64,000 nucleotides of DNA from assembly GCF_041146795.1 (NCBI RefSeq), contig NC_135174.1, positions 5,705,878 through 5,769,877 of the forward strand. The letters run 5' to 3'. The position numbers and the translations under genes were made by a program. This DNA is from Maylandia zebra (lineage: Eukaryota > Chordata > Actinopteri > Cichliformes > Cichlidae). The notes below the pieces were generated by a model that had not been told where the DNA came from, ran no database searches, and worked only from the letters and a program-made list of their open reading frames with translations. This document shows, piece by piece, positions 56-51,432 of this stretch; the first letter of the stretch is position 1; each line of letters opens with the position of its first letter.

Positions 56-182
56 CTGATTGTAGATGGTGATGGAGCGTAGTCGATGCAGGAAGAGCAG
101 CAGCGAAGGGTGCACGTCATGAAACAGGTTCCTGGTCTGATGGCTCTCAGTCCGGAGAGGAAGGCTGATCTTAGTGGTCCAG
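56..182 (-). CDS. Coding exon 21: end of in-window ATPase region
   Basis: 127 nt, phase 0 at the donor (AATCAG|GTAAGT). Encodes KISLPLRTE and DVHPSLLLFLHRLRSI, which follow the ATP lid in NO VEIN proteins. The gene continues left of the window, where a DUF3883-like C-terminus would be expected if homology holds. Confidence 0.8.
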
Positions 183-3100
183 CTGAAAAGAGAAGAAGAC
201 AAAAAATTAGACCATGGGTCTAATGTGAGCAGCAGACTGCTAATAAAGTTAAACAGATGTTTTGGCTTCCCCATAACCAAACTAAATTACCCATATTATA
301 ACAATAAACAAGGAATACAACTATTTATACTAGAGTGGGGACATAAACAAAGAGGGTCAGACTCTGACGCAGGGCAAATTATCGTGAGACCACGCTTGCA
401 AAAAGCAGAGGAACGTTTAGCAGCTGACCTACAAACAATGTGCCAATTTATGCACACAGACACAGTCAGCGTTTCAGCGATCCACTGAGAGCCCCACAGA
501 TTACAGGGCAACAAATGAGCAGACCTGAGCAAGAAGCTGACAATGCAGATGCCGTTTGTTACTTTGGATCTCACAAACATGAAGTATGTAGGGAGATGAC
601 GGTAAAGATGGGTTTTAGCTGCACTCTGTAGTGTAGTTTATCACAACTGTGTAATATTGAACTCCAAAGTTAAAATAAGAGGTTTGTTTTTAGAAACAGC
701 TCCAAGAAAAGCACTGGTGTAAATACTGAAACTGGTAACAGATCAATTCAATTTAGCTGATCGACTCTCAGGGTACTGGGATCAATAAGTCATCTGACCT
801 GTGCTGATTTATGTCCCTCAGCTGTGGATCCAGAGGCCTCGTATCTTCAGTCCAGTGGGGGAGGATGTATCCCATGGGGCCACAGTTCTTGTCAAAGTGC
901 AAGTGGAAGCCATTGGAATGAATCTCAGGACAGTCTGTGACCTTAAACACTGACTTGAAGCCAATGCCCTTCTGTCCTGTACGAAGTAAAACAGGAGAAC
1001 GTCATTTGTCTATGTGGTTTTAAGTTCTCCAACACTACACACAAAAAATTTAAATTCCTTTACACAGTTGTAACGGTGGAAGAACGAAAGAGTTACCAAT
1101 GTATCCATATTTGTGTTTTCCCTTAGTGCTGCGGCCTACATCACAAATAGCCCGAATGTTCTTCTCCTGGAAGCCGGTTTCATTGTTGAGGACAGTGATA
1201 CAGTCTCGCTCCACCATAAAAGCCAGCGCTGGAACAACACCAGGCTCTGCCGGGTAACTGTTGTCGTCGGCATTCTGAAAGAAAGGAATACAAAGAGTTC
1301 GGAGGATATTGGACAAAATTCAAATCAAAATACTAAAGCAAAGAAGTTTCCTTTCATAGAATTTTAGACCCACAATCAAACTGCTGTTTTTTGTTTTACA
1401 GATCTTTGAAAACTATTTTTATCCTTCCTGATTTCTTATTTTTCCTTATTTGTCACACCGGCCACGTTTCGGTTCATCAGACAATTTTTAAGATCCACCA
1501 AATTTACCCACTCTTAACAGTATTGCTTTAATTTCCAAACATTAAGCTCATGTCAAAGCATCTCAATCGGATTTAACTCAGGACTTTAACTAGGCAACGC
1601 TAAAACCTTCATTTTGGCCTTTTTTAGCCAATCAGAGGTGGACTTGCAGGTGTGTTTCAGATGATTTCCATACTGTATTACCCAAGTGCGACAAGACAAG
1701 TGAGGCCTGCACTTCTTTAGAAGTTGTTCTGGGTTTTTATGATCTATAATCTTGATTTAAAAACTGCATATTGTATTAACTCGGGTTATCTTCGTATAAT
1801 CTTAAAATACGTTTGATGATATGAAACCTGAGAGTGTGACAAATATAAAAAATCTAAGAAATCAGGATGGAGAAACTCCTGGAAGCTTCTGATAAACACG
1901 TTCAGATTTCTACCTGAATGAGCTCCAGGACAAAGTGTGTGTCCTTGCTGTAGAGTTCAGTGGAGAGGCGGTCTAAGCTGCGGCCCAGTCGCTCCTGGTG
2001 GACCTGCATCAGTTTCTGGCCTTCAGCTGTCAGTTTCACTCCGATGCCAAACTCACTTTTCCTGTCAGAGAGAAAGAGGAGACCAAAAAAGAGTGACAGA
2101 GCAGCCACAACCAAATCATGACACTTAAACGGACAGAGCAGTTATGGATAAAGGTGACAAACCTGATGTCTTCAATGACGGCTCTCTGGATTGTGTCCTC
2201 GGACTCACAGCTGTCACCCTCCTTTTCATCTCCGTCAGACATTTTGAGCTGTTCCTCGCCCTGGCCTCCTTCAGCGTCGCTGCTGACGTCTGATATCTCT
2301 CCGTTAGGCACCGAGGCCAACTCATACAGCTGCTCTTCATCCTCTTCCTCCTCCTCAGCCTCTATGTCTTGCTCATCGTTGACTTAAAGAACACATTTGG
2401 TAAAAGATGTCAAAAATGGAAGCAGATTATAATTTGTCACAGTATGAAAACAGTAATAAAGTTCAAAATCCTGCAGTGGAGAGCCACTTTCAATCACCTT
2501 GGTGTGGGCTGTGGTACAGCTGGGAGGATTCAAAGCTGTTGTCCATGATGTTATCCTCAAGAAAGTCATCTTCACTCATGTTGAGAGCTGACAGACTGCT
2601 GCACTCAGAATCTGTCAAATTAGACTGAAGACATAAGAAAGGTAAGAAGAATAAGTTAATAACAGAAATATGCTGCTGAGCAACAGTGTGCAACATTACA
2701 ACTAGTAGACAACATTGTTGAGCATTTCTTCACATTTCTGTATTTTTACTGCTTTGTACTTTCCACACAATTCAAATAATTAATTAATAAATTTACTGTG
2801 CTGTCACTGACCAATCAATCTGATCAATGTGACTTAATGGCACCTCATTGGTTAGCGCTGTTTCCTCACAGCAAAATGGATCTGTGAGGAGCTCCACATT
2901 TGTATACTGCATGATTCAAAGTTCAAAATAAACCTTAGTAATTTAATAGTGGGCCTTTGTGTAGCCGTCCAGTTAATCCACTGTCTGAAACAAGCTGATT
3001 TCCCTTTAATTGTACATTTTCTAATTACCCTCTGCAGAATTTTAATAAAACCACCAGGAGGCTGCTCACGTGCAAACAGCCAGAGTTGCGTGCCTAAAAT

Positions 3101-6100
3101 GACTTGCATCAGGAATATCACTGAAATCTACGAACAAGTATTTGGGCCGTGTTAAGAAAAAAAATTATTATCGACCTTTTTGAGAATAAGGTCGAAATTG
3201 TATTTCGAAAAAAAAAAAAAAGTAGAAATGTGGAGATTACAGTTGTTGTCTCAATACAAACTGCCACAGCTGCCCTGGGAGTAAAATCAAACTTCAGAAT
3301 CGTTTTCAGTAACAAGGAAGGAAATGATTTCTCTTCAGAACGTAAACATATTGTGTGATGAGAATAAGGATGCAGAAAAACAGAAAAACACACGAATGTG
3401 GGAGAGTGGATTTGTACAAAATGAACAGCCTGGTAATGGACAGATGCAGTTATGATAGTTATGGATGTGCAACCAAGACGATGTATGTACAAGTTGGCTG
3501 ATCAGTTTGTTTAACAGTGCATTTTGTAGAGGGTTATATGTAGATGCAGTAATCTCCACATTTCAACCTTTTTCTCTAAATACATTTTAGTGTTTAATCT
3601 GGAATTTCAAATTCATTTTGAAAATGATTAACTAATTTTTTTTTCTTGACGTGACTCTGTCCTAGAAATCATACAAGAGTCAAGAGTGGAGAAAAAATGT
3701 CTAGAAATCCAGGTTTTTGGCTCACGGGACCTATTTTATATACATTCTATTCAAACGTTAGCTATCCAGCAGTTTACATCTGCCCTTTAAGAAGTCTCTG
3801 ATGCAGAAGAAAATATAGATATCTCCTATATCTAGTGATAATAAGTCTCAATTCTGAACCTCAAGAGTTCCTTTTGCACAATAAAAATGTTTAAACATTG
3901 CTGCTTTGTCGTGGCAGCAGGTCTTTGGCATTATACCCTTAAAAAAAGCAGACTTTCCACTAGAACCAGTTCTTATATGTTGCTTTTTTCCCCTTTTTTG
4001 TGTTTTTCTCTTACTATTACTGCTTACTTTACAACTCAGCTATCATATACCGCATGCCATTTTTTATGTTATTTGAGCAGCAGTGAGATTCCAGTATACT
4101 CTAAATACATAGTCCATAACTTTGTGGATTGATGTTGTGCTGATATATGTCACTGACAAAAAGGACTCTTCAATTCCAGTGCAATGTATAAGCTACATTT
4201 ATAGATTCCCTCGCTTGTGTTCTGACCTTGGCTTGGTCCACAGGTGCTGAGTATGTGTTACAGCTCTGGCTTTGAGGTGGGTTCAGCTTTTTCTCGTAGT
4301 CTTTGATCCAGTCTGGGATGCCTAGAAGGATGCCCAAACGATGCAGACAGTTCATGTACCTCGGCTCCGACTGAGCCACGGTCATCAGGACCCGTTTAGA
4401 TTTGGCCTGGCCCAGGACACGGGAGAAGGGCTCCAAAAACACCTGGAAGAACATAAATGCCAGAATTTTAAATGCACATGACATGTTTGATTACACATAT
4501 TTGTTATGTACATTGTATTGTACAAATTGTTGCAAAGCAAAAAGAGACAAGATGTTGCAGACAACTTGAGAGAGCTTTAGCTCTGAGATGTCCAACAAGC
4601 CATCTAAGTCTGTGGTTGGCATGACAACTGAATAACAGCCTCCTCTTCAGCGATTTAGCTGAACAAACTAAATTCAGAGGCTAAAGCTGCCCACTCATGT
4701 GTTCCAGGACACACTGAAATGTTGTCACATGTTCCCTTTTTGTTGGTTGAAAGCTGTTTACTGGAATCATCAACACATAGTGCCAGCATCGATGTCCAAT
4801 AACACTAAATATGATCAAGGGTTTATGTTGTGCCAAAGAGCACAAACTAATCAAAACATCAACTAGATTTCAGTTGGATATAAATATATAACATATCAGA
4901 TGTTGAATTTCTAGCCTTCTGCAGAAGACATGAGATGCATTTTTCAGCATCCACTCCTGACCTGCAGCAGAAGAGCCTGACAGGTTCTGGTGGGGATTCG
5001 TGTGAAACACTCCAGGAGGAACTTGGCAACTTTGTCGTAACATGACACATCCTCCTCAGCCATGGACAAATCTAAACGACACAAATTCTGTTAGTCCAGT
5101 TGTGCTTTACTCTTTTCTATGGAGCAAAATGATTTTCCATCATCTATCCTGTTAAATACCTACCTTCTTTAGCCACAGCTGCTGCCAGAGAGCTTTGCAT
5201 GTGGTTGCTCAGGAGGGCTATGGGAGCATTAACTATTCCGTCAGCTACCACCATGGACACAAGGTGGCCAGCTGTTCCCACAGGATCGAGGGCCGTAGTG
5301 GCACTAGAGAAGTGCTTGTCTCCTGTGTCTGTGGTGACCCTAAACAGCACACCGGGGGTGACCTCTAATGCTGCTAGGCCTGTATTACCTGTGCAGTAAG
5401 TAAAACATGAAATCACCCATTAGTTGTTGATGCCTTTGTATTACTGCTAATTGCTCAAGAGGACACATCAAATTTAATTATCAAAGCCTGAATACCCAAA
5501 TGATGCAGACAGCTTATGTGTCTCGGTATGGAAGAGGATTACGGCAACTAGGAAAAATACAAATGGGCACGTCTTCTTTTTCTTTTCCGCAATCAACTTC
5601 TGTTGTTTTTAATTCAAATTCTGAATTATTTTTTTCTCAGAATTCGGAATTCTGAAATATTTCTCTTCTGTGTTTTTCAACTTCTGTTGTTTTTATTCAG
5701 CTTCTGTTTTTTTTAAATTCAACTCATCCCATTTTCATTCAAATTCTGAAATGAAAACATCATGAAAAGATGATGTAATCAAATTAGTACTCAGTTATCT
5801 AAAATTTGCTTTCGAGGTTGCTGGCTTTTTTAACTGTTCCAACACTAAACAATAAAAGAGACACTAGATTCTATATGTCTTAAGAAATGTGATTTAGTTA
5901 ACTAAAAATAACTGCGAACCAAAACTAGAAAAGCATTTTTATTAACTAAAATAAAACAAAGTAGCAAAGTAACTAACAGTAATGGTTTTGCAAAGTCCTT
6001 GTTAATTTGGTAAATACTTTATCACAGCTCTTCTGATGAGGCTGTAACGGACGTGCTTATTGAGACTTTGGATGTCTGAATGAATGTGAGTCAATTGCTT

Positions 6101-9100
6101 TCATAATGTTCTCTTTTTTTTATTCTAATATCCATACTGATCTCTGGCATTTATTCTCCATATAATAACACTACAAATGTCTAATAAAAATTAACAACTG
6201 ACTAAACTACAATTAAACATCTTCAAAAGCTAAAGTGGAAAAACCAAACCAAAAGGTGAAAGGATAAATGTTTCTCTGTGCAATGTGAGACACAGTGGTG
6301 GTCATCCTGTCCTTTAATGTTAAAACTTAGAATATGCAAACTAAGGCCTTCAACAAATAAGGTTATATTTATCTTAGTAAGAGCTTGCAGGAGCTCAAAG
6401 TGCAGGACCCAACTGCAGCACAGCCGTAAAAGTGGGAGCAGCTGTGTGTGGCACTGCTGCAGTTTTCAGCTACACTTGTTGTTGCAGTCACAGCAGTGCT
6501 CACTCTGTGTCTTCCACATTTATTTTAAAGTATGTAACTTAATCTAATCATCTTTTATTTTACAGTGTGTAGTCATGTTTATGTTGAAATGAGTGCACTG
6601 GTACGGTTAGTTACGTCTCACCTTGTATCGACTGCCCTCTTGTGGACTTAATGTGATAATCAAACATGATTTCTACACACGTTTGGCACTTTTTGACAGC
6701 AGAAACAAACATTTTTTATTTATATCTTTAAATCGAAACAAGGCTTTGTTTGTGCATAATTAGCTGAACTGAATGGCAGAAGGTAAAAATAATGCACTCT
6801 ATATTACCAAGGATTCATTCTGGATTCAGTCTACACATATACCGTATCACTGAACGACGTACCGTTTTATCAACTCATTTTACGCCGATCACTGGTTTAT
6901 GGGAAATGGGACACCTTGTATATGGTTAAGTTACATTTAAGCACTCAAAGTGCTTTCTACAACATGCCTGAGTTAGCTGACTCAGGAATACGGTATGCTG
7001 TAGCTCAGCAAGTATGACCTGCTATATCTCCTGAGCTACAGCCACCCCATACATCACATTTAGTTGAGTTTAAAAAGTCTAAAAATGGTCATGTTCAAAG
7101 CAATATGCCTCGTGCCTACCTGCATTTTTTTCAATGAATTCCTTGAGGGAGCCGTGAAGGGGTTTAAAGATCAGCTCCCACTGGCTCCACTCACTTAAAT
7201 CCTCCAGCAGAGGGCAGGAGAGCAAGCTGGCCAGGGCCTGATCCTTGGACATTTCACCAAGCCGACCCACTGACTCAAATCCACCTTCAGCACTGTTCAT
7301 GGATGTGAAAGACAGAAGAATAAAGGCAACTGACATGAAAACTGGACCTGTCAAATGATGGGGAGTTTATCTTTAAGTTATTCATCCTCCCATAAGGTTT
7401 TCTCATTTTAAAGGGGACCTAGCATGCTCACTTCCAGCTCTACATATTTATTGTTGGACTCTACATGTCCAGGCAGAGCGGCTTTGTTTGATTCAGAGTT
7501 CATAGCAATCCTTATTTATCTTAATACTAAGCCTTGGTACAGTGTGTCTGAATCAAGCCATTTCACCATGTCTCCATTTAAGGCTGCTGTCCCTTTTAGC
7601 TAACCTCTTCTAATTAGCTTCTCCTCACAAACAGAAGGTTTGAACAGCAGGTGGGTGGAGCCTCTCACTGACACACCGTGCCAGAAGTAAAAAAACAAAC
7701 AAAGCCTGAGTTTTTGCCTCCACCACTCTTACAGATATACAATAAACATAAGGAAAAGCATAACATTACAAATCCTTCCCATATACTGAGGTGCATTTCT
7801 GTCTGTCTGGTGATAGGCTTCTAACCTTGATTTGCCTTGTTTAGCAAACAGGGCTGATTCATAGCAGACTGGGCTCAGTCCTCCTCCACCCAGTGCTTTT
7901 TGGCGTTGGACCAGGTCAGCCAGTCTGTGCAGAGGACCATGCCCCAAGTCACGACTGTCCCGGACCCCATAGTGAGACCTCAGTGCTGACTCAATGTAGG
8001 AGAGCTGAGGAAACACAGTTGCAGTGTAGTTTTAGAACATCTACTGTGAAAAAAGGTTGCTGTATCTGTGTCTGTTTTTATGACTCACTTCATCTGGATC
8101 AGTGGAGGCTACGTCGCCGCACTGTTTGATGAACTCAAAAACATCTTGTTTGGAGGGTCTGAAGCCACTGCCGGCTCGCTCCATGCTGCTGCCCAGAATC
8201 AAGGTGGACCCCACTGTGTCCTGCAGCAGCTGCACACAACCAGATGAGAGACACTGAATTTGGATGATTTGGTGCAACTTGTTATCTCCTTATTATGACC
8301 GCAAATTCTTTTGCTTTGTTAATTTGGTCCCATACCTGTGATTTGCAGAGTTAAAGTAAATCAAAAATGAGAGAACTACCTGAATGTTGTTCACCAAAAA
8401 CTCCAGGAAGCTGCCTTTCTCTAAAGACAGGAAGTCTTTCACGTGGAAGTGTTCAGACAGTTTTTTCTCCAAGGAAGCAATGTGTGCCAAAGTGATAGCT
8501 GAGTTCTGAGCAGCCAGTTTGTCCCTTAGATACTGCTTCACTTTAGCTGAGAAATAGAGAGTAGAAATGTGCATTTGCCATTTAAAAATATAACAGATTC
8601 ATGTTTAGGATAGGATAAGCTAATATATGTGTAACATCTTGCGTTAGAAACCTTCGCTTGGGAGAGATTTGGTGGATTTGTCCTCTGGTTTAGTTTTTTC
8701 CGTGGGTTTGGAGGTCTTGTCTTTGGGCACTAGGTCGTGTGGAACAGCCAGGGATCCCCCACAGATGGCCAGCTGAAACAGAGCTGTTTCCAGCCGATTA
8801 CCTGACACCTGCAGCAGGAAGTTCTGGACGTGCTGGATCAGAAAACAAATAGAGCTTTGTGTCACAGGAGCGCAGAAATAAAACAGGCACACCTAGCTTC
8901 TCTGTTGCTTCTCTCTCTGCTCAGAGCAAACACAGACTTCAATCTCGTGTGTGCCATTACTGTGTGTGGATGCTGTTTATTATATCTAAGAACTGACTCT
9001 GAAAAAAACAAACAAACTAGAAAATCTTTTCCAAAAGTCTAGTTTTTCTGATAAATGTGTACGGTGTGAAATCTGAAACCTGCTTTGCTATTACCTGCCA

Positions 9101-12100
9101 ATTTGGACTAACACATTTCCAGCACAGTCTTGTCTTTGTTTTTGTTTTTCACTTGTCTGTTCTGGGGCAGAATGTGAGGTCTCGCTTGGTTTACAGCAAA
9201 TATAATAGAAACACAGGCATAGTTTGGGCACTGATGCTCAATGTAAGAATTGGTGTGTGTTTACTTTGAGTAACAATCCCACAACTCTGTGTTTTTTCCA
9301 TTCGTTTTTTCATATACAAGAGGTGAAAACCACCTTTTCCATGGAGTATGTGTCACTGATAATTCCTGTAAAATGATCCACAGTAGGTTGGTTTCTCTGA
9401 TGAAAACCGGCAAAAGCTGTTTTACATTTGTAAAACAGCGCATAATTACTATATATAGACAGCACTGCAGGCCAGTAGGCCAGTCTTTTACAGGCCTCAT
9501 GTATTATCTTACTGGTCTGCAGAAAAAACAAAACATCTACTAGTATTTTAAGTACTTTAGATGGCATCTTAATTTATAATCAAACAGCATTACTAATTAC
9601 TATACTTCTATCTTATATGAATAATCCAAATCTGTAAATTATATAGAAACTACATTCTTAAAATAACAAAATAATAGATCACTAATAGAAAGAGAGGGGA
9701 ATAGGTGCTCTCAGCAGGCAGCAAAGTGCACCTTCATATGTCATGTTATGTTTTTGAGTTTATGGACTTTTGTTTTGTTGGTGTAACTTTTTTTGGGCAT
9801 TTATTCAACGGTAGAGCAGTTAAGAAAGACAGAGAAATGGGGAAAAGACACACAGCAAAGGGCCCCGGGTCAGAAGCAGGGCACATCCCGGACAGGTCAC
9901 CAGCCTGCTGCAGGTCTTCTTCATGTATTTAGTTTCTAGTTCCTGGTTGTACTTGGGTTTAGTTCTACTCTTAGTGATTGTTTTTTCTTCCTCGTGTGTC
10001 ACTTCCCCTGTATTGTTCATTTGTGCATCTGTGTTTCCCTGTTCAGTTATCACTGCTCACTTCCTGTTTGATTTTGATAGATATTTGCTCCCTGTGCCTT
10101 GCTTTTAGTTTTATCTTCCAGTCTCTTGTATGTATGGACCGAGCTGGGATGTATCGTATAGACATACTAGAGACAGCTTTCATTTCTATTTGTTCTTAAT
10201 ACAAAACAGTGTTGGCCGCTTACTTTTCTTCATGTTTGAGCTTGTTGAACAGGAGTTTTTGTCATCACATAATATTATCCTGACTATATGAAGAAAACAA
10301 AGTGAGCATTCACCTCAGCCAGTTGGATTCACAGGTAACATATAAAAATAAACATATAAACCACATCTTACTAGTTATGTGCCGTCAGTCACATAACTCA
10401 AGTTACAGCCCTGCTATAACTCATTCACACCTAAATGCTTTAGTCTAGCTATTAAAGTTGTAACCAACTAACACACGCTCTCACTCAAACTTTGATGGAT
10501 GCTTTAGCGTCATTCTGTGACCCTCTTACTGGCGAATGACCCAGTCCAGATTCAGTAACACAAGACATCTGTCAGTGTGTGACACCCACCTTGGCCATCC
10601 TGGGGCTGAACACCTCCCCTGCATTTGTAAAGACCGCCAGCACGACCTCGGCCGCTGTCATTGAGGCATACTTCTTCGAGAGATCCGAGCTGCCCGCAGA
10701 GGAGAAGGAAGCTGCTCCTTTCAGCGGCTCCAAGATGCTCTTTTTGAGTTTCCTCAGCCGTTCGTATATCTCCTCCTCCAGCTCTTTCTGAATCACCTCC
10801 CTGGCACACTCCAAGATGGTGTGCTCGTTACGGCCTACCTTCGAGATTGTCTAGAGTAGACAAATGTGTTTGTGTTTAATATGAGAACAATGGCAAAGTA
10901 TAGCAGGTTAATCTTTACCCAAAATAAAAGTGAAGTCGTTTTTTTTGTTATAAGTTCACGAATGAGATTTCCACACATCTCACTGTTTGTCATAGTTAAT
11001 ACTTAACAACGCATGGACAGTGGGGTTCACAGAGAAGAAATCACAGCATTATTCATTAAATTTATCAGTTACTTGAAACTACCTTCAGCAAAAGAAATAA
11101 TCAGTGTGGTCCCAAGCGGACATAGGCTCTAGCTGAGACCACAGCCGGAAGCAGAATAAAACAATAATTCATGCTGGCACTTTAACTCGATCCCAAGCCT
11201 CCCTGTATGTTTGCCAAGAAGGTTCATCTGGGAGGATACCCAGGCTGTGCGGGGTGTGGCTGTGGATGCACATGCAGCTTGTGTAACCATAATATATCCC
11301 AGCAAATATGTCCCAAACCTCTGCTGATCATAACTCATCAGTAAACCGTCCTGGAATGTAGCAGAACATTGTGCTTTTTACCGATATGGGCAGGCCAAGA
11401 CCAGTTATCCTGATGCCCAGCTCGTATGGAGAGTCACAGTTATAGTGGTCAGCCAGATGCTTCATAAACTCAGCCAGGTCCACTTTTACCTTCGTCTGCT
11501 TCCTCCTAAAAACACGAAGTTGCTAAACAAAAGAATGGAAACGACATATATTTATGACATATACTGTAACTGTAAAACATAATTTAACAACAACAACAAC
11601 AAAATAAGCTCTTATAAACATTAAAGCTCAAGTGCAAAACAAAACTGAAGCCCTGTGAATGCACCTTTAAGATGTCTACAGTCTCGATCTGGTGGATATC
11701 GTCATCTTTCGTGTTGCTGTCAATCTTGAATATGCGGTGAATGAAGGGGAGCTTGCAAAGGGGGCCGAGGTTTAGCTCTTCGTAGCGCTTCTTGTCCTTG
11801 AGGCCAGCTAATGACTGGCCCAGCTCATACAGGGTACAGATGGATGTCACTGCTGAGGTGGTCTGGGAGAAAGAGGACAAAATAAAATTCAGTTTGGCAA
11901 CCTGACAGTGAGAAAACAGGTGAAAACTAATGCGTGCCAACCTCTATGAACATGTTGATCTCTCTAATGAGGTACTGAAGATCTTTTAGAGCTTTAAGAG
12001 GCAAGTGCTCTACCCCTCTTGGGTCCAAAGAAGGCACCAGCCTGCATACCCGGGATATCACCTGGAAGCAGGAATGAAAGGCAGTGAGAGGACAACAACA

Positions 12101-15100
12101 AAATCAAACGCAGCGAGTTAGTCCAAATGTAACAGAGTGAAACATGACTCATTGTGGGAAGCACAAGCCTAGCACACCCGTAGTGATGGTGCCAAGCCCA
12201 GATAAATGGGAAGGGCCAAATCAAATATCCTCTTGGAAACTTGACAGCAGATGAGAAACAAAGATGCAGCTGAAAAACAACTGGTGATAAACTAAAGGAA
12301 AAACAAGACGGAAGAAAACTGCAAGCGAGAAAACTGGCGTAAATAAATATGTGTGTAGAAGCCCAAATATATTGATGGTAACCTGGGTTAGAAACAGTGA
12401 GGCAAGCAGTGTAGTCTGTGAGAATAATTTAATGTTGCATAACAGACTAAATGATTAGGAAAATGATCAAATAGCATATTATGCACAGCTACACAGTAGA
12501 AAAAATAAGTATAGTTCGTCCTCACCTTCTTTGTGGTGACCAGCTCTCCATCCCCAGCGATTTCTCGTATGACACTCTCCATCAGAGTGTTGATCGTATC
12601 CTGATCCATGTCCCTGTTTCTCCACCTCCCATTGAAGTCCTCCTGGTCTGCTTCCATGGCCTCCACAGCTCGCATATTTTCTCCAAGGAGCTCCCTGAGC
12701 TGTGCATGATAACCTTTATTAAAGACAGGACCGCTGCCTTCTCTCGGGCTGGCATCCCTCACTTTGGTCTTCTGCTCTTTGGCCAAACTCCGATCTGCCC
12801 CCAGCACTGGAAAATCAGAGGCAGACAGGAAGCTAAGCCCACTGGCCTGTTCCTGTTCTTTTTCAGGTTTAGGACTCTGTGTTGCTGTGGGAGGATAATA
12901 CAAACTATTTAATTAATATGGACTATTGAGAATCTTTGCCTTTTATGCTTGAAATGGAATGTTTTGATGTTTGGCTACCTGCAGCGGTCTGCCACACCCC
13001 AGTCTTGGGATGAGTTGTTGGCTGAGACTGAGTGGGGAGCTTCTTGGCTTCCCAGTTGTCGTACAGTGACATGTACTGGGCAAGAGGAAACTTTTCACCA
13101 AACTTCTGAGAATAGCAGGTTTGAAGCTGTTCCATTGATGGAGCAGTTAGCTGGTACGTCCCCATCACCTGAAACACATCAATAAACTTTTACACACCAA
13201 CTGGTTTCCATAGGCAAATACCTGCTATAACACAGTGTACTGCAGAAGCCAAAGTTCAGTTTTAAGAGTACATTGGTAGAAGATGAGTTCATTAAGATAC
13301 AAGCTTGTAATGCATAAATGAAGAACTCTATTAAGAACTTCCACAAAGCTCTCTGTGTCTGGCAGTTTTTTGCATATTTCAACTGTTTTAATGTAAGACA
13401 ATCTCACAATACATTGAAGTGAGCAAAGCACGCTTTAAGTTTTCACATTCTTAGGTGAGAAAACTACTTACAGATGGCTTCAACCAAATTAAGTAGTGAG
13501 AGGGAAAACGAGCTGTCTCTAACTGCATCCTTCTATTTAGTTTACAAGCATGGGTGTGTTCCCACTATCAAATATAACTACATTAATGGGTTTATGGAAC
13601 TGGATAATGTACTTAAAGCAGTAAAAATGCTGATTGCTGAACTCCTCTATGTCTGTTTTCTGTCGACTGTTTTCTTCACTATATAAGTAATACTGAGTAA
13701 TATTACGTGTAGTCAGAGGTATGAGGAATGGAAAATGTTGTCAAAATCCAAATGAAATCGAATGCTGCAAATACAAATGCAAAACTCTGCATGGTCAATC
13801 TGGGACAACCTTGTCAAAATTTATGTACTAAAAAAAATGTACCGTATACACAGGTAGTGTGAGACATGTTTACGCTAAGTGGACTTTTTAATTCATTTAT
13901 CCTCCTGCAATGAAAACTCATTACTCTGTAAATTAAAATAACCCCACCAGGAATATTACCCCCCAACCTAAGCATGTCAGGGAACAATTTAGGCCTCTTT
14001 TTATATTTTCATCTTCGCGAGCTAACAGACACAGGACTGAGAACTATCTATAAGAGATGGTAGATGCTCAGCTGCTGACTGCATTCTAGTTTACTGTTTA
14101 GGCTAACCAGTAAACACATTTGAAAAAAAGCATTCTTTACTATCTTTACATTAAAAAAATTCAGTTTTTTATCTTGTGCTTTTGTTTTATTGTTCTTCAT
14201 TGTGTCATTGTTCTATTATGTGTTTTATCCTATTATACAGTGTCCTTGTGGGTCTTGAAAGGTGCTTTATATATAAAATGTAGTTTATTATTATTATTAT
14301 TAATAATAATAAATTATGATTCCTTTAATGTCTGTACCTTTTAACTTAAGAGGCAACTATTAGCCTCAAAAGTATTGCAGATTTTTAAGATGTCAAGATA
14401 GTCAGCATCAAACTGTAAAGATAAAAGATGCCTATATATATATATATCTATATATATATAGTATCAGAGTGCACAGCTAACCTCTAAGATCCTCTGGTAG
14501 AGCTGCTCTTGGGACAATTCCTCAGCTGGCTGGGGTACAGTAAGAAGGGGAATAACAGGAACATAATGGGAGGAAGATATGGAAGCAGTGGAAATCAAAG
14601 GAGATCCAAGAAGGTTCATTCTTGCCTGAGTGGGAGGAACAATCTGAGGACTGGCATCGCGCTGTGGTAGAGTACGAAGGGCAGGGCTACTGCTCCTGAT
14701 AAGCGAGTCAGGCGTACGTGGTGTTGTAGGTCTGCTGTTCTCTTTAGTCTTCGTGAACATCCCAGCCTGAGGCTGATTGTGAGGCCGGTGACTCTTATGG
14801 TACACCACATCCTCCACCACAACCAGATCTTCATTCAAAGAGTCTACCAGGCTGGAAACTGTTTTGAAGTCCATAGAGACTAAGGAGACGTCATGGCTGT
14901 ATTTCTGTTGATAGGCTGCAGTCAACAACTTCAGAGGGATCCCATCCGGATGTCCTTTCATCATTTTCACAATTCTCTTCAAAGTCTTACATCTTTTTTT
15001 CACTTCGGGAGCTGTTGCTGATTCCTTACTTTGAGCTGCAGCTCCACATTTGGCCCCAGCTGTCGCCTGGTTTCCCCCACGATGGTCCCTGTGAAACACC

Positions 15101-15288
15101 AGTTCTTCTTCTAGAACCAGATCCCTCTCCATCGAGGATACCAGGCTGGTCATGGAGTCAAAGCCCAGTTTGGATAAGGTCAAGTTCTTGTGATATGTCT
15201 GGCTATAGACGATAGCCAGCTTTTTAAGCGGGATCCCATCAGGGTGCTCCCTGACAATGGACACTAGCTCCGTCCGAACTTTTTCCAT
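56..15288 (-). CDS. LOTUS/OST-HTH domain + NO VEIN/sacsin-like GHKL ATPase protein (multi-exon, 3' end outside window)
   Basis: Twenty-one coding exons in minus-strand order: 14482-15288, 12979-13168, 12526-12884, 11942-12061, 11665-11862, 11382-11498, 10590-10850, 8652-8832, 8380-8546, 8089-8229, 7826-8004, 7120-7292, 5164-5388, 4962-5071, 4227-4442, 2498-2624, 2163-2382, 1914-2061, 1097-1274, 799-976, 56-182. All junctions are GT-AG with matching phase, giving 4,422 nt and 1,474 codons before the left edge. Residues ~1-69 and ~101-167 are two LOTUS/OST-HTH domains, each with HPDGIPLK. Residues ~1300-1385 hold a GHKL ATPase: ELIQNADDNSYP (N box) and GYIGQKGIGFKS (glycine-rich ATP lid), closely resembling plant NO VEIN and related to sacsin. 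LOTUS domains bind RNA in TDRD5, TDRD7, MARF1 and Oskar; GHKL modules are ATP-driven clamps. The start ATG at 15286-15288 has A at -3 and G at +4. The middle region is unrecognised. RNA-linked ATPase function is inference. Confidence 0.85.
799..976 (-). CDS. Coding exon 20: GHKL ATP-lid
   Basis: 178 nt, leaves in phase 2. Starts GQKGIGFKSVFKVTDCPEIH, the glycine-rich lid that contacts the ATP phosphates, then SNGFHLHFD and GYILPHW, all as in NO VEIN-type ATPases. Confidence 0.9.
1097..1274 (-). CDS. Coding exon 19: GHKL N box and G1 region
   Basis: 178 nt, leaves in phase 1. Starts NADDNSYP (Mg-ATP-binding Asn/Asp), then VERDCITVLNNETGF, NIRAICDVGRSTK and GYIG. This run closely matches the NO VEIN ATPase domain and is the most diagnostic sequence in the gene. 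Confidence 0.9.
1428..1867 (-). mobile_element. Internally deleted Tc1-like element (MITE) in intron 18
   Basis: The termini are inverted repeats: CCTGATTTCTTATTTTTCC at 1428 and its complement, imperfect, ending at 1867, each followed inward by TTTGTCACAC. The interior at 1560-1700 resembles the reverse complement of a Tc1 transposase catalytic region (the segment containing 'aggtggacttgcaggtgtgtt'-like sequence). It is a decayed, non-autonomous copy. Confidence 0.6.
1914..2061 (-). CDS. Coding exon 18: start of GHKL ATPase module
   Basis: 148 nt, ends phase 0 at ATTCAG|GTAGAA. Encodes the helix RLGRSLDRLSTELYSKDTHF followed by VLELIQ, whose glutamate is the expected GHKL catalytic base just before NADD in the next exon. 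Confidence 0.85.
2163..2382 (-). CDS. Coding exon 17: acidic stretch
   Basis: 220 nt, leaves in phase 2 (ATCAG|GTTTGT). Begins with a run of glutamates (IEAEEEEDEEQLYELA) and ends QRAVIEDIR, which leads into the ATPase domain. Confidence 0.75.
2498..2624 (-). CDS. Coding exon 16: acidic linker
   Basis: 127 nt, leaves in phase 1. Ser/Asp/Glu-rich (NMSEDDFLEDNIMDNSFESS). With exon 17 it forms an acidic, probably disordered tether just before the ATPase module. Confidence 0.75.
2625..4226. other. Intron 15 of the LOTUS-ATPase gene
   Basis: 1.6 kb of AT-rich sequence with an A-run at 3210-3222. I see no gene, RNA or clear transposon. Confidence 0.5.
4227..4442 (-). CDS. Coding exon 15
   Basis: 72 codons, phase 0 on both sides. 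Contains VLGQAKSKRVLMTVAQSEPR and GIPDWIKDYEKKL, still in the long conserved middle region. Confidence 0.75.
4962..5071 (-). CDS. Coding exon 14
   Basis: 110 nt, ends phase 0 at CTGCAG|GTCAGG. Encodes an alpha-helical segment with CYDKVAKFLLECFTRIPTR. Confidence 0.75.
5164..5388 (-). CDS. Coding exon 13
   Basis: 225 nt, phase 1 at both ends (donor GAAG|GTAGGT). Encodes TGLAALEVTPGVLFRVTT and an Ala/Val/Leu-rich helix, suggesting a compact globular part of the unnamed middle domain. Confidence 0.75.
5389..7119. other. Intron 12 of the LOTUS-ATPase gene, with repeats
   Basis: At 5,578-5,740 there is a low-complexity tract with three imperfect copies of CAACTTCTGTTGTTTTT separated by AATTC-rich sequence. 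At ~6,938-7,068 there is a diverged copy of a fish repeat also found near 33.2 and 52.0 kb. Nothing else is recognised. Confidence 0.5.
6938..7068 (+). repeat. Dispersed fish repeat, copy 1 (truncated)
   Basis: Shares GCACTCAAAGTGCTTTCTACAAC near its left end and GAGCTACAGCCACCCC at its right end with copies at 33,205-33,437 and ~52,020-52,262. The middle is missing or diverged. Confidence 0.5.
7120..7292 (-). CDS. Coding exon 12
   Basis: 173 nt, enters phase 2 and leaves phase 1 (GCAG|GTAGGC). Contains a tryptophan-rich SEWSQWELIFKPLHGSLKEF segment, probably part of a folded domain in the middle region. Confidence 0.75.
7826..8004 (-). CDS. Coding exon 11
   Basis: 179 nt, leaves in phase 2 at TCAAG|GTTAGA. 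Encodes LSYIESALRSHYGVRDSRDL and a glycine-rich turn. It joins exon 12 in frame through a split serine codon. Confidence 0.75.
8089..8229 (-). CDS. Coding exon 10
   Basis: 47 codons, phase 0 on both sides; donor GAA|GTGAGT. Contains QDVFEFIKQCGDV. The 5-base donor consensus supports the boundary. Confidence 0.75.
8380..8546 (-). CDS. Coding exon 9
   Basis: 167 nt, ends phase 0. Encodes KQYLRDKLAAQNS and a second helix with KDFLSLEKGSFLEFL. No motif recognised. Confidence 0.75.
8652..8832 (-). CDS. Coding exon 8
   Basis: 181 nt, leaves in phase 1. Starts HVQNFLLQVSGNRLETALFQL and ends in a Lys/Pro/Glu-rich, probably disordered tract. Confidence 0.75.
8833..10589. other. Intron 7 of the LOTUS-ATPase gene, with repeats
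   Basis: A segment at 9,790-9,910 (TATTCAACGGTAGAGCAGTT through CAGCAAAGGGCCCCGGGTCA) matches a repeat I recognise as common in teleosts. It is followed at 9,925-10,190 by a pyrimidine-rich repeat tail. No coding potential supported. Confidence 0.45.
10590..10850 (-). CDS. Coding exon 7
   Basis: 87 codons, phase 0 on both sides (ctctag acceptor, AAG|GTGGGT donor). Encodes a Glu/Lys-rich, probably helical or coiled-coil stretch (IQKELEEEIYERLRKLKK) followed by a small hydrophobic region. Confidence 0.75.
11382..11498 (-). CDS. Coding exon 6
   Basis: 39 codons. The acceptor is placed at aggaag|CAG because the tttttag 7 bases upstream would break the phase inherited from exon 5. Contains DLAEFMKHLADHYNCDSPYE, and the donor is TCG|GTAAAA. 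Confidence 0.65.
11665..11862 (-). CDS. Coding exon 5
   Basis: 66 codons, phase 0 on both sides. Contains LYELGQSLAGLKDKKRYEEL and then a KLPFIHRIFKI segment. This belongs to the conserved but unnamed middle region of the protein. Confidence 0.75.
11942..12061 (-). CDS. Coding exon 4
   Basis: Exactly 40 codons, phase 0 on both sides (ttccag acceptor, GAG|GTTGGC donor). Encodes a helical segment containing HLPLKALKDLQYLIREINMF. No family recognised. Confidence 0.75.
12526..12884 (-). CDS. Coding exon 3: charged linker and helix
   Basis: 359 nt, ends phase 0 at KK|GTGAGG. It encodes a polar Glu/Lys/Ser stretch followed by a helical segment rich in Arg, Glu and Asp (AQLRELLGENMRAVEAM). No known domain recognised. 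Confidence 0.75.
12979..13168 (-). CDS. Coding exon 2: possible third, diverged LOTUS-like segment
   Basis: 190 nt, enters in phase 0 and leaves in phase 1. The junction LYQRILE|VMGTYQLT followed by CYSQKFGEKFPLAQY has the helix spacing of a LOTUS domain but lacks the DGIPL core, so a degenerate third copy is possible. Confidence 0.75.
13169..14481. other. Intron 1 (coding) of the LOTUS-ATPase gene
   Basis: AT-rich, with an AT dinucleotide microsatellite at 14,431-14,460 directly beside the exon and a TTA/TAATAA tract at 14,285-14,315. No gene or transposon recognised. Confidence 0.5.
14431..14460. repeat. (TA)n microsatellite
   Basis: TA dinucleotide run interrupted once by TC, about 20 bases from the coding exon 1 donor. 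Confidence 0.8.
14482..15288 (-). CDS. Coding exon 1: tandem LOTUS domains
   Basis: 269 codons, phase 0 at the donor (GAG|GTTAGC). It holds both LOTUS domains; the second aligns with the first through HPDGIPLK, a tyrosine-rich helix and a final VVY/LVFH strand, so they look like an internal duplication. Residues ~171-262 are a Ser/Pro/Thr-rich linker, probably disordered. An in-frame GTG lies at 15298-15300, but the ATG at 15288 is the credible start. A splice acceptor (ctgatag) directly upstream implies a separate 5' noncoding exon. Confidence 0.85.
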
Positions 15289-15367: not shown

Positions 15368-15790
15368 ATAGTAAGTAAATAAGTAAAACTTTATTTATAT
15401 AGCACCTTTCTAGATAAAAGACCACAAAGTGCTTCACGCAAGGATAACAAAGTATAAAATAAAACAGACACCACTTAACAAAATGCAATTCTAAAAAAAT
15501 GTGCTTTTAGTTGTTTTTTAAAGGAAGCTACTGAGTCCCGAGATCTTAAGCTCAGTGGGAGAGAGTTCCACAGTCTGGAAGCCACCGTGGCTAAAGCTCT
15601 GTCTCCCTTAGTTCTCAGCCTTGTATGATGAATGACAAGTAGGCCCTGATTACATGACCTAAGAGACCTGCTAGGGACATGGGGCTGTAGAAGTTCAATG
15701 ATGTAGGCAGGAGCATGTCGATGAAGAGCTCTATAAGTCAGAACCAGAATCTTGAAATGGACTAAATTCAATGGGGAGCCAGTGCAGCTG
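15368..15790 (-). mobile_element. LINE (L2-like) 3' end fragment
   Basis: The minus strand encodes a ~95-residue C-terminal piece (FKILVLTYRALHRHAPAYI, LRTKGDRALATVASRLWNSL, DSVASFKKQLKAH) typical of L2-clade LINE ORF2 ends. It is followed by a 3' tail that reads GGTGCTATATAAATAAAG and a short ACTT-type repeat. 5'-truncated. Confidence 0.65.
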
Positions 15791-16030
15791 TATTAGCAAC
15801 AGTGTCACATGTGAATACTTAGATGTTTTGGTCAGAAGTCTTGCTGCAGCGTTTTGAACCATCTGTAGACGCTCCAAGGAGTTTTTGTTTAAACATGTAA
15901 ACAGTGAATTACGGTAGTCCAGTCTTGATGAAATGAAAGCACCAATGACAATCTCCAGTTCAGTACGAGATACAATGGGGCTTAGTTTAGAAATGTTTCT
16001 TAAGTGAGAAAAGCAGGACCGAAGTTAGTG
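15791..16030. repeat. Interspersed repeat fragment next to the LINE tail
   Basis: Contains GTCTTGCTGCAGCGTTTTGA and GAATTACGGTAGTCCAGTCT, phrases I recognise as a common teleost interspersed repeat. It may be a further part of the LINE insertion. Confidence 0.4.
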
Positions 16031-41991: not shown

Positions 41992-43595
41992 CAGTGGGGC
42001 AAAAAAGTATTTAGTCAGCCACCGATTGTGCAAGTTCCCCCACTTAAAATGATGACAGAGGTCAGTAATTTGCACCAGAGGTACACTTCAACTGTGAGAG
42101 ACAGAATGTGAAAAAAAAAATCCATGAATCCACATGGTAGGATTTGTAAAGAATTTATTCGTAAATTAGGGTGGAAAATAAGTATTTGGTCAATAACAAA
42201 AATACAACTCAATACTTTGTAACATAACCTTTGTTGGCAATAACAGAGGTCAAACGTTTACTATAGGTCTTTACCAGGTTTGCACACACAGTAGCTGGTA
42301 TTTTGGCCCATTCCTCCATGCAGATCTTCTCGAGAGCAGTGATGTTTTGGGGCTGTCGCCGAGCAACACGGACTTTCAACTCCCGCCACAGATTTTCTAT
42401 GGGGTTGAGGTCTGGAGACTGGCTAGGCCACTCCAGGACTTTCAAATGCTTCTTACGGAGCCACTCCTTTGTTGCCCGGGCGGTGTGTTTTGGATCATTG
42501 TCATGTTGGAAGACCCAGCCTCGTTTCATCTTCAGAGTTCTCACTGATGGAAGGAGGTTTTGGCTCAAAATCTCATGATACATGGCCCCATTCATTCTGT
42601 CCTTAACACGGATCAGTCGTCCTGTCCCCTTGGCAGAAAAACAGCCCCATAGCATGATGTTTCCACCCCCATGCTTCACAGTAGGTATGGTGTTCTTGGG
42701 ATGCAACTCAGTATTCTTCTTCCTCCAAACACGACGAGTTGAGTTTATACCAAAAAGTTCTACTTTGGTTCCATCTGACCACATGACATTCTCCCAATCC
42801 TCTGCTGTATCATCCATGTGCTCTCTGGCAAACTTCAGACGGGCCTGGACATGCACTGGCTTCAGCAGCGGAACACGTCTGGCACTGCGGGATTTGATTC
42901 CCTGCCGTTGTAGTGTGTTACTGATGGTGACCTTTGTTACTTTGGTCCCAGCTCTCTGCAGGTCATTCACCAGGTCCCCCCGTGTGGTTCTGGGATCTTT
43001 GCTCACCGTTCTCATGATCATTTTGACCCCACGGGATGAGATCTTGCGTGGAGCCCCAGATCGAGGGAGATTATCAGTGGTCTTGTATGTCTTCCATTTT
43101 CTGATGATTGCTCCCACAGTTGATTTTTTCACACCGAGCTGCTTGCCTATTGTAGATTCACTCTTCCCAGTCTGGTGCAGGTCTACAATACTTTTCCTGG
43201 TGTCCTTCGAAAGCTCTTTGGTCTTGGCCATGGCGGCGTTTGGAGTCTGACTGTTTGAGGCTGTGGACAGGTGTCTTTTATACAGATGATGAGTTCAAAC
43301 AGGTGCCATTCATACAGGTAACGAGTGGGGGACAGAAAAGCTTCTTACAGAAGACGTTACAGGTCTGTGAGAGCCAGAGATTTTCCTTGTTTGAGGTGAC
43401 CAAATACTTATTTTCCACCCTAATTTACGAATAAATTCTTTACAAATCCTACCATGTGAATTCATGGATTTTTTTTTCACATTCTGTCTCTCACAGTTGA
43501 AGTGTACCTCTGGTGCAAATTACTGACCTCTGTCATCATTTTAAGTGGGGAACTTGCACAATCGGTGGCTGACTAAATACTTTTTTGCCCCACTG
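41992..43595 (-). mobile_element. Complete Tc1/mariner (Tc1-like) transposon
   Basis: 1,604 bp beginning CAGTGGGGCAAAAAAGTATT and ending with its complement, flanked by the TA target duplication (41,990-41,991 and 43,596-43,597). Terminal inverted repeats are ~200 bp (41,992-42,192 and 43,397-43,595), nearly identical to each other. One uninterrupted transposase gene lies between them. Near-identity of the repeats and the open frame indicate a young insertion. Confidence 0.95.
42209..43231 (-). CDS. Tc1-like transposase, DD34E, intact
   Basis: 340 residues, [18 protein letters not shown] to the stop. The N-terminal paired-like DNA-binding region holds two helix-turn-helix modules (about 1-60 and 65-115); a GRPR-like hook is represented by [11 protein letters not shown]. 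The DDE catalytic domain has [13 protein letters not shown] (first Asp), [11 protein letters not shown] (second Asp) and [11 protein letters not shown] (Glu), with exactly 34 residues between the second Asp and the Glu. Binds the inverted repeats and catalyses cut-and-paste at TA. Full length for the family, with no stop or frameshift. It lies inside the 200-bp inverted repeats. Confidence 0.95.
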
Positions 43596-47111: not shown

Positions 47112-47441
47112 TGTAACATTAAAGTGTGAAATATTTATTAATATGTAAATGTGAAAATGTATTTATGTATTTATTTATTCTTATTGATATATTGGATATT
47201 GTGGTGGAAGGTTGGGATTTAAGAATTTACCTGAGAGTGGAATAATGGTTTAGTCTGTGACAGCTGAACATATTTAAGGCTGCCAGTTGTCATTAGAGTG
47301 TGGTTTTTTGTGCTGTGAAGAAGCTTGACAAATTAATTGTTGTAAGGGGAGCTGTATAGGAAATAAATGCTTTTTTGTTCCACTACACTTGCCTTGGTCC
47401 ATCTCACTGTGTTTCCAGCTGCTAAGGGCTGCCCTGTTACA
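47112..47441 (+). repeat. 5' LTR of the Gmr1-like element
   Basis: 330 bp, TGTAACA...TGTTACA perfect terminal inverted repeat. Contains AATAAA at ~47,361. It is followed by GTGGTGTCAGAAGTG, a plausible primer-binding site. Confidence 0.8.
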
Positions 47442-47481
47442 AGTGGTGTCAGAAGTGTGTCACTCATGGCACAGTGAGAAG

Positions 47482-48613
47482 ATGATGACAAGAGGTGGAA
47501 GAAAGCCAGGCCAAGAGGAGCAGCCTGATGAAGGAGTTGGAGCTTCATCTGAGCTAGAGGCCATGGCAGCAACAAGCCCTGAGGACAAATTGGAGGAGTT
47601 GACAGGGTTGGTGAAATCTCTTATGCGGTCTCAAGCAGCCAGAGACCAAAAGTGGGAGAAGGATTTGTCACGTCAGGAGCAAAGGTGGAAAGGCATGCAG
47701 CATCAATTTCAGCAAATCCAGCTACAAGTTAACGCTGTAATTGATAAGCCTGATCCACCAGAGGCGCCAGCACCCCCTACAACATCTGAAGAACAAGAAC
47801 TTGGATTCAAAGGTGAAGACATTCCAGTGGCCAGTGGGTCCAAGTCTTTAAGTGAACCAAAACTATTTCCTCTGTCTACAGAAGATGACATTGAACATTT
47901 TCTGACTACGTTTGAAAGAATGGCAAACGTGTGTCGATGGCCCAGAGATGAGTGGGCTATTCGTCTGGTTCCCTGTTGGCAGGTAAAGCCCGCACAGCCT
48001 ACATTCTTATGGATTTAACAGACTCTGAGAATTATGATAAGGTGAAAGAGGCAATTCTGGTAAAATATGAGATCACTGCTGACACCTACAGATGCCGCTT
48101 CAGATCTCTGAAAGTTGAACCAGGTGAGACGCCACGTGAACTTTATGTAAGATTGAAAGACCCGTTTTCAAGATGGATTAAACCTGAAAAATCAACTGTA
48201 GAAAAAATATCTGAGCAGATAATTCTGGAGCAGTTTTTGAGAATGGTTAGCCCAGAGCTGGAGATCTGGATACGCGAGCATGATCCGAAGACAGCAAAGG
48301 AAGCAGCTAGCCTCGCAGAGGTTTTCACTTCAGCCAGAAAAGGAAGCAAGAGCACCTACTTCAGCCGGGAGACCCACTACACCCAACCAAGTAAGTCCAT
48401 TGGGGGTGAACAGGGTTCTGGTCAAGTTCAGGCTAGAAATCTTTCTAGTTCTAGGCAGCTCCCTTCTCATAGACCTCACAATGTGAAGAAATCCTTTAAG
48501 TCTTCAGTTCAGGATATTAAATGTATCACTGTCATAACTTTGGCCATACACAACAATTTTGCCCTGCCCTTAAGTCAAAACCATCTCTTTTGTGTGCAGT
48601 TCCAAGACCAGCC
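47482..48613 (+). pseudogene. Gag of the Gmr1-like element, frameshifted
   Basis: Starts MMTRGGRKPGQEE and includes a coiled Gln/Lys-rich segment. It continues after a frameshift near 47,960-47,980 with LLAGKARTAYILMDL and a capsid-like helix set (ISEQIILEQFLRMVSPEL). A zinc knuckle near 48,517-48,560 reads CxxC-HNFGH-TQQFC, but the first Cys is in another frame, so one base is missing. Assembles the retrotransposon particle when intact. Confidence 0.7.
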
Positions 48614-48970
48614 ACAGAGCCGGTAGGAAAGGAAGCTTGTACTGTCCCTGTTTTAATTAATGGGCGTAAAGAGGAAGCTTTGCTTGACTCTGGGTGCTTC
48701 CAAACTCTTGTACATTCTAGCATAATTTCAGGAGAAAAGCTAAGTGGGGTTGGGGCTACAATAAGTTGTGTGCATGGAGACGAACACAGGTGCCCCACTG
48801 CTGAGGTTTACCTGACAGTGGGAGGTCAAACCCACTTGTTAGTGGTAGCTGTGGTTCCCAGTTTGCCATATTCAGTGATACTTGGTAATGACATCCCCAC
48901 TCTTTTTGATCTAATACATCAGTCAGATTATGACCCTCAAGTGAGTGCTGAGAAAGACATTCAAGGCTAA
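48521..48970 (+). pseudogene. Zinc knuckle end and aspartic protease of the Gmr1-like element
   Basis: About 150 codons. EEALLDSGCFQTLV holds the DSG catalytic motif and YSVILGNDIPTL the second hydrophobic motif of a retropepsin. It ends at a TAA at 48,968; the following 370 bases contain several stops. Confidence 0.75.
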
Positions 48971-49343
48971 GGTGATGAATCTGGAAGCTCCCTTCCTCTA
49001 GATATGACAGTTGAGCCATTTAAACCCTGTCATGTAGTCACAAGGGCACAAAGTGCAAAGGAAATGATGAAAGAGCTACCCTTTTTTTGAGGAGTCTCTC
49101 GAAACAGAGCCAGGGAAGATTAGGAAGTCTAGGGCTCAGAAAAGAAGAGAAAAGTTCAAAGGCTCAGGGGAAAAGGGTACAGCATTGTTCCCTAAGCCAA
49201 ATAACCAACTTGAGTTTGATGTTCCCTCAGATTTAGGTGCACTCCAAAGAAGCGACCCTACTCTAAAACCCTGGTTTGAGAAGGTAACATAGGTAGAGGG
49301 GGCTAGTCAAGGTCAGGTAAGCTGTCTTGCGGACACTGTTTAC

Positions 49344-51323: not shown

Positions 51324-51333
51324 CCCTGTTACA
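51313..51333 (+). repeat. Remnant of the 3' LTR end
   Basis: Twenty-one bases ending GGCCGCCCTGTTACA match positions 47,421-47,441 of the 5' LTR at 20 of 21. Fused directly to RT coding sequence, so a deletion removed RNase H and most of the 3' LTR. Confidence 0.7.
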
Positions 51334-51344
51334 GTACATAACGT

Positions 51345-51432
51345 CAATGAAAATAAGCCTGGCATAAATCTCCTTCAGTTCCAGATGGGTCAGGGTTGTG
51401 TAGAGTGCTGTGGCTATGGGATCCCCTGTCAA
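51345..51432 (-). mobile_element. LINE reverse-transcriptase fragment
   Basis: The minus strand reads IATALYTTLTHLE and IYARLIFID, matching the IATALY...FIDYSSAF region of fish non-LTR RTs. Only ~30 codons remain; it abuts the gypsy remnant. Confidence 0.5.

Follow-up and report, generated by a model that had tools for sequence, protein, structure and literature searches.

A stretch of 64,000 nucleotides of the Maylandia zebra genome (962 Mb, 63 contigs), C8:5705878-5769877, hereafter the window, contains the first part of a gene that evidently represents the wu:fj29h11/NO VEIN family in this fish. The encoded protein is best explained as three parts: a pair of LOTUS (OST-HTH) domains, about 1,080 unnamed residues, and a module of prokaryotic type that begins with a GHKL ATPase and closes with a nuclease-type domain, NOV_C. 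This domain architecture is well supported. The gene is cut by the edge of the window and extends for a further ~25 kb to a stop codon at C8:5680833 (window position -25044), with about half of the protein, whose whole length is ~2,900 residues, encoded outside the window. The sequence past the stop resembles a 3′ untranslated region. The only NOV_C match in a search of the genome is at C8:5680902-5681141, on the same strand as the gene, and a 423-residue segment of the middle matches nothing in the genome but this gene, which is apparently single-copy. The placement of its conserved half in the PADLOC group of TmtA, which we take to be a gene of the anti-phage system Tiamat, its intact nuclease-type site and its LOTUS front form a testable hypothesis on RNA, ATP, cutting and the restraint of viruses or transposons, and suggest that an animal NO VEIN relative may detect genetic material that is unwanted and break it down.

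ATPase and nuclease-type domains

The ATPase part of the protein matches the Pfam Sacsin domain SACS (PF25794) with an E-value of 1e-15 (58.6 bits, cut-off 32.8), and the NCBIfam sacsin N-terminal ATP-binding-like domain with 72.7 bits (cut-off 50). Its N-box, ELIQNADD, is assembled across the junction of exons 18 and 19 (E1315...N1319), and the glycine box GQKGIGF lies at residue 1378. The columns of both boxes are invariant between the fish protein and five prokaryotic proteins. Judging from sequence, the fish GHKL module is predicted to bind and hydrolyse ATP. A first-pass annotation of the window had called two LOTUS domains joined to a NO VEIN-type GHKL ATPase. Both halves of that call are borne out, by the SACS match and by an OST-HTH match with an E-value of 3e-15; the profile that it had named for the ATPase, HATPase_c_3, stays below threshold on the spliced ATPase part (14.4 bits, cut-off 25). 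A sequence search of the PDB with the ATPase gave nothing convincing (best E-value 0.081, to sacsin).

NOV_C occupies the C-terminus (Pfam E-value 2.1e-17, 63.4 bits, cut-off 22.1) and is carried by the last exon of the gene (window -24631 to -25044, minus strand). The D...ExK residues of the domain are intact in the fish (D2820, E2837 and K2839), and the prokaryotic relatives keep D84 and K99 in 20 of 20 cases. The predicted model of a prokaryotic NOV_C has the core fold of PD-(D/E)xK nucleases (SPARDA, Hjc). The fish domain may have nuclease activity. A PDB sequence search with NOV_C gave nothing convincing (best E-value 0.85). Neither the piece of 461 residues ahead of the ATPase nor that of 773 residues behind it has a Pfam match; the five pieces scanned with Pfam cover the protein outside residues ~1154-1268, ~1799-1809 and 2583-2713.

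Relationship to TmtA and to prokaryotic proteins

The C-terminal 1,635 residues match the PADLOC TmtA model PDLC03972 in three stretches (477 bits, E-value 3.6e-143). The ATPase part (530 residues) fits model positions 23-522 of 1302 (E-value 1.3e-89), and the NOV_C piece fits the end of the model, positions 1156-1291 (E-value 5e-23). By profile score, PDLC03972 is the TmtA model to which the NO VEIN-type half is closest.

We collected prokaryotic relatives in several ways. A tblastn search of plasmids with the ATPase returned 15 records with 22.5-32.8% identity, of which eight are annotated as DUF3883; seven of the 15 were inspected. None of eight candidates was confirmed when viral contigs were scanned with the ATPase, nor any of 46 when genome contigs were scanned with the fish protein alone. 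An alignment-based scan of genome contigs yielded 592 candidates, at least 554 of them confirmed, and 80 loci were kept, whose best segments are 26-55% identical and whose proteins were mechanically taken to begin at the earliest start codon in the open frame. Over their whole length, though in pieces, complete prokaryotic proteins align with the C-terminal ~1,640 residues of the fish protein, with at most 44% identity in the ATPase part.

Several of these proteins align with the fish protein from residue ~1262 onward, in one to three pieces. The alignments of L025, L026, L027, L028, L038 and L047 extend to fish residues 2885-2900, within NOV_C, and those of L042 and L030 to residues 2568 and 2686. 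In 12 of the 80 loci (L024-L028, L031, L033, L038, L042, L043, L045 and L047), the BLASTP alignment begins at prokaryotic residue 3-8, corresponding to fish residue 1251-1262. Since the alignments start at prokaryotic N-termini, the fish gene seems to encode a whole protein of prokaryotic type, to which ~1,260 residues have been added in front. Among the 72 loci whose 3′ end is complete, an iterated profile detected NOV_C in 38 and in none of the other 34 (last 260 residues searched); the remaining eight loci run off their contigs and are outside this count.

A quick tree places the fish ATPase inside a set of 38 rows that otherwise comprises 31 bacterial and 6 archaeal rows (SH-aLRT 97), and separates it from the sacsin repeats of this genome. 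Smaller forks nearby have support of 87-91. The tree holds 91 of 94 rows, short ones having been dropped. Because its loci were picked by similarity to the fish ATPase, and plants and other animals are left out, it neither dates nor directs a transfer.

The tree also bears on the idea that the gene encodes a sacsin-like protein-quality (chaperone) factor. The ATPase does match the Pfam sacsin domain, and sacsin shares the TmtA match. However, the fish ATPase branches among prokaryotic sequences and away from the sacsin repeats, in a sampling biased towards the query, and its C-terminus is of nuclease type, whereas sacsin is described as ending in DnaJ and HEPN domains in the available part of PMC3710099. 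We consider a chaperone role highly improbable. As a separate observation, four sacsin-like giant open frames (3,668-3,711 codons) form a ~100-kb cluster at G000 C16:23331555-23430763, and C14 has a further sacsin frame of 3,858 codons.

LOTUS domains

The first exon (14482..15288, minus strand) holds the start codon, LOTUS 1 (residues 2-55, ~15285-15124), LOTUS 2 (residues ~100-160, ~14991-14809) and a Ser/Pro-rich tail. Pfam OST-HTH matches the spliced protein piece in two stretches (56.3 bits, cut-off 23.8), as the first-pass annotation had led us to expect, and matches exon 1 alone with an E-value of 9.6e-15; in a genome search the exon scores 36.7 bits. The Pfam match rules out a weak look-alike of LOTUS. 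No further OST-HTH was found by Pfam in three stretches of the middle region. A third, degenerate LOTUS-like stretch over the junction of exons 1 and 2 is suggestive: it aligns with LOTUS, yet has no Pfam OST-HTH match.

LOTUS/OST-HTH domains have been described as having a Ghxph motif (PMC2848206, available part). LOTUS 1 fits it with GFDSM, and LOTUS 2 has DFKTV, without the G. A single-sequence structure model of the LOTUS region has a mean predicted local distance difference test score (pLDDT) of 59, with block means of 70-85 in LOTUS 1. Foldseek pairs the LOTUS 1 model with the TDRD7 LOTUS structure 2lh9 at a probability of 1.00 but with a weak E-value of 0.04, and with 8wxs at the same probability and a weak E-value of 0.11. 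At moderate model confidence, LOTUS 1 resembles the LOTUS domains of TDRD7 and Tejas. A PDB sequence search with LOTUS found no relative.

Extended LOTUS domains, which bind Vasa, have a C-terminal extension helix behind the wing that is suggested to form upon Vasa binding (PMC5458760, available part). No helix is predicted directly behind either fish wing, where residues 69-97 and 171-186 are of low confidence (pLDDT below 50); this would fit the minimal rather than the extended, Vasa-binding class. The MARF1 LOTUS binds G-rich RNA, as cited in the available text of PMC10226599, whereas RNA binding by the LOTUS domain of Oskar was not detected according to the available part of PMC5458760. 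RNA binding by the fish domains is therefore a prediction.

These domains could point to a MARF1-like endonuclease of RNA decay in germ granules, in which LOTUS would select the mRNA and NOV_C would cut it in place of NYN. MARF1 and DNE1 do couple LOTUS to a nuclease, according to the available text of PMC10226599, and the two fish LOTUS domains, as modelled at low confidence, are without the extension helix. Even so, we consider such a role quite unlikely.

Two OST-HTH exons elsewhere (L007 and L008, G000 C17:39506427 and 40679592) lie 1.17 Mb apart, have equal scores and are identical in the residues of the compared stretch. They are either a recent duplication or an assembly duplicate.

Gene structure

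The gene model is derived from genomic sequence with a home-made exon-chain program that uses generic vertebrate splice matrices and codon use; exon edges are approximate. At a penalty of -13, the minus strand gives a chain of 45 exons and 2,903 residues, all phase-consistent. Inside the window this chain has 21 coding exons running from 15288 down to 56 and encoding 1,479 residues, close to the 21 exons and ~1,474 residues of the first-pass annotation, whose LOTUS and ATPase motifs also lie where it placed them, the GHKL motifs in exons 19 and 20 (1274-1097 and 976-799). Seven program settings gave 42-64 exons and 2,795-3,182 residues, and 38 exons have identical edges throughout. On the gene strand the chain reaches a score of 400, compared with 33 on the opposite strand and no more than 2 in 10 dinucleotide shuffles; a looser setting gives 538, 102 and no more than 28, respectively. 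These strand and shuffle scores rule out a chance mix of open reading frames as the source of the gene.

Exon 1, whose region appears as a 286-codon minus-strand open frame in a six-frame listing, is single in two of the seven settings; in the other five, an in-frame intron (14625-14530) is taken out. The same six-frame listing has the ATPase motifs in open frames close to the low end of the window. The following exons, all on the minus strand, have the same edges in all seven settings apart from exon 6 (six of seven): exon 2 (12979..13168), which shares the third LOTUS-like stretch, and exons 3 (12526..12884), 4 (11942..12061), 5 (11665..11862), 6 (11382..11522), 7 (10590..10850), 8 (8652..8832), 9 (8380..8546), 10 (8089..8229), 11 (7890..8004), 12 (7120..7347), 13 (5164..5388), 14 (4962..5071) and 15 (4227..4442), the acidic exon 16 (2498..2624) and exon 17 (2163..2382). 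Exons 11 and 12 have at least two phase-consistent parses, with an alternative 3′ edge at 7826 and an alternative 5′ edge at 7292, respectively. Exon 17 encodes an acidic linker, near the end of which the prokaryotic homology starts (BLASTP). The GHKL ATPase begins in exon 18 (1914..2061), which ends in ...HFVLELIQ, the first part of the N-box. Exon 19 (1097..1274) has NADDNSYP and the G1 box LNNETGF and is covered by the SACS and NCBIfam sacsin N-terminal domain matches, exon 20 (799..976) has the G2 box GQKGIGFKSVF, and exon 21 (56..182) is the last coding exon in the window.

We infer one transcript across the LOTUS and ATPase exons. The alternative is that two adjacent genes, or an internal promoter, produce separate LOTUS and NO VEIN/Tiamat-like proteins, the second of which could begin at an in-frame ATG of exon 17, near residue 1243. 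The prokaryotic homology begins near the prokaryotic proteins' own N-termini. Two-gene and one-gene parses also score alike (547.8 versus 544.7 and 414.9 versus 410.2 in two settings, with the extra start and stop uncharged), so that the single gene of the first-pass annotation is consistent with the exon-chain check, as are separate genes. However, the best break point shifts between the settings, from 10265/10020 to 7729/7300, as would be expected when extra sites cost nothing, and of the 14 exons that separate the LOTUS exon from acidic exon 16, 13 are edge-identical in seven of seven settings. A two-gene arrangement seems improbable to us.

Genomic context of the prokaryotic relatives

We scanned 19 neighbour genes, selected by their size and proximity, at 15 of the 17 loci with listed open reading frames. 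In a first set, nine of nine match PADLOC at 1e-5, where it should be considered that helicases cross-match many PADLOC models. Four of the nine (at L036, L045, L049 and L051) are HEPN_Swt1-SNF2 helicases directly or closely upstream, with DrmD as their best match. The rest are type III/IIG restriction enzymes (L028 and L046), a NERD-type helicase (L029) and UvrD helicases (L031 and L032). Such neighbours support a defence setting for the wider family, and weakly for the closest relatives of the fish gene.

The arrangement of a HEPN_Swt1-SNF2 helicase gene followed by a NO VEIN-type ATPase gene recurs at L036, L045, L049 and L051, where the two genes touch or lie up to ~290 bases apart, in Desulfobacterales, Terriglobia, a deltaproteobacterium/Myxococcota and Methanoculleus. 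This pair is a candidate two-gene defence unit. On the Sulfuricurvum plasmid pSULKU01 (L014:8291-16826), a NERD gene and a DUF3883/GHKL gene stand directly before qatABCD.

Proposed function

The reading that we tentatively favour, at somewhat less than an even chance, is an RNA-sensing, ATP-switched nuclease that descends from a defence protein and controls foreign or selfish nucleic acids. The LOTUS domains would recognise a class of RNA, such as transcripts that are G-rich or structured, or RNA-DNA hybrids that stem from mobile elements or viruses. Upon RNA capture, the GHKL module would bind ATP and close, and its closure would free the C-terminal nuclease or bring it into position, so that the captured nucleic acid is cut. 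The role might be to restrain nucleic acids that are foreign or selfish, as the anti-phage protein Tiamat/TmtA suggests by analogy. The recognition of RNA, gating by ATP, cutting and the biological role are all conjectural. The first-pass annotation had proposed an RNA-guided or RNA-sensing ATPase, which is reasonable but incomplete, in that the other half of the protein carries the PD-(D/E)xK-type NOV_C. We prefer an ATP-switched nuclease to an ATPase alone because the half outside the window holds NOV_C and completes the homology of the C-terminal ~1,640 residues to TmtA.

Several points weigh against a defence nuclease. The case is built on domains, motifs and homology rather than on activity, expression or phenotype. 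The best Foldseek E-values are weak, at 0.009 for the NOV_C model, which was built on a prokaryotic domain and not on that of the fish, and 0.018 for the LOTUS model. The exons parse about equally well as two genes. A sacsin stretch of 3,058 residues from the same genome also matches TmtA models (361 bits to PDLC03965 and 170 to PDLC03972), and the TmtA label is thus broad, spanning a wider sacsin/NO VEIN family. Sacsin is not known to act in defence. The neighbours of L025, L026, L027, L030, L038 and L047 include six of ten without a PADLOC match, and two of the four matches are weak (6e-9 and 6e-6). The seven tested loci in the fish gene's own tree fork have a mixed context: a type III restriction enzyme (L028), a UvrD helicase with a PD-(D/E)xK domain (L031), an RmuC-like match (L025), two weak matches (L038) and no match (L026, L027 and L047). 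Moreover, plant NO VEIN is required for embryogenesis, and is thus a developmental gene, as stated in the available part of PMC12690905.

The last point would suit a developmental or chromatin factor in which, by analogy with MORC and SMCHD1, the GHKL module acts as an ATP-driven clamp, LOTUS tethers it to transcripts and NOV_C binds nucleic acid without cutting. Beyond the need for NO VEIN in plant embryos, an acanthocephalan NOV transcript is female-biased and correlates with body size (PMC12690905, available part). On the other hand, the fish keeps the D, E and K of NOV_C, residues that a domain with a purely structural role could do without. We judge a developmental factor to be unlikely. 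Returning to the defence nuclease, a broader version of it is possible, though rather doubtful: fishes and, by extension, other animals would have kept a whole bacterial anti-phage protein of Tiamat type and added LOTUS, giving an RNA-triggered, ATP-gated nuclease for innate immunity or transposon control, with plant NO VEIN as the same effector.

Other features of the window

A 361-codon open frame on the minus strand (42209-43294) looks like what we take to be an intact Tc1/mariner-type transposase. Open-frame pieces of retroelement kind at 47329-51367 presumably correspond to Gypsy gag-like and pol-like sequences. Just 5′ of the gene, on the same strand, are coding fragments (15475-16024) that we assume to be LINE-like. 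Two minus-strand open frames ~1 kb apart (61877-62329 and 62871-63401) have near-identical starting residues, as in a duplicated unit.

Comparison with known systems

The NO VEIN family and its animal member wu:fj29h11, presumably PANTHER PTHR32387, share with the fish protein a GHKL ATPase followed by a C-terminal NOV_C in a very large protein. The N-terminal LOTUS pair appears to be an addition of the fish gene relative to this family. Protein NO VEIN is equated with Wu:fj29h11 in PMC12690905, and no metazoan homologue had been characterised earlier according to its available text. In the literature searched, mostly non-subscription, we found no link between NO VEIN and LOTUS, OST-HTH, Tiamat, DUF3883 or anti-phage activity, although one may be published. 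The terms ATPase, HSP90 and GHKL are absent from the available main text of the OST-HTH discovery paper (PMC2848206).

With TmtA, the agreement extends from the ATPase, which fits the start of the model, to NOV_C, which fits its end; the fish protein adds LOTUS and ~1,080 residues. In plant-associated metagenomes, 100% of Tiamat systems were reported on plant genome sequences (PMC12409356, available part), and these plant-borne calls may be NO VEIN. Sacsin has the GHKL subfamily (SACS, PF25794) in common with the fish protein, but has several ATPase repeats, another C-terminus (PMC3710099, available part) and a separate position in the tree.

Like the fish protein, MARF1 and DNE1 combine LOTUS and a nuclease-type domain in one protein. 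Their nuclease fold is NYN rather than PD-(D/E)xK, however, and they are not known to have a GHKL ATPase. The germ-granule LOTUS scaffolds TDRD5, TDRD7 and Oskar share the LOTUS domain and a similar predicted fold. By contrast, none of the five scanned pieces of the fish protein matches Tudor, and its LOTUS domains are joined to an enzyme-like module.

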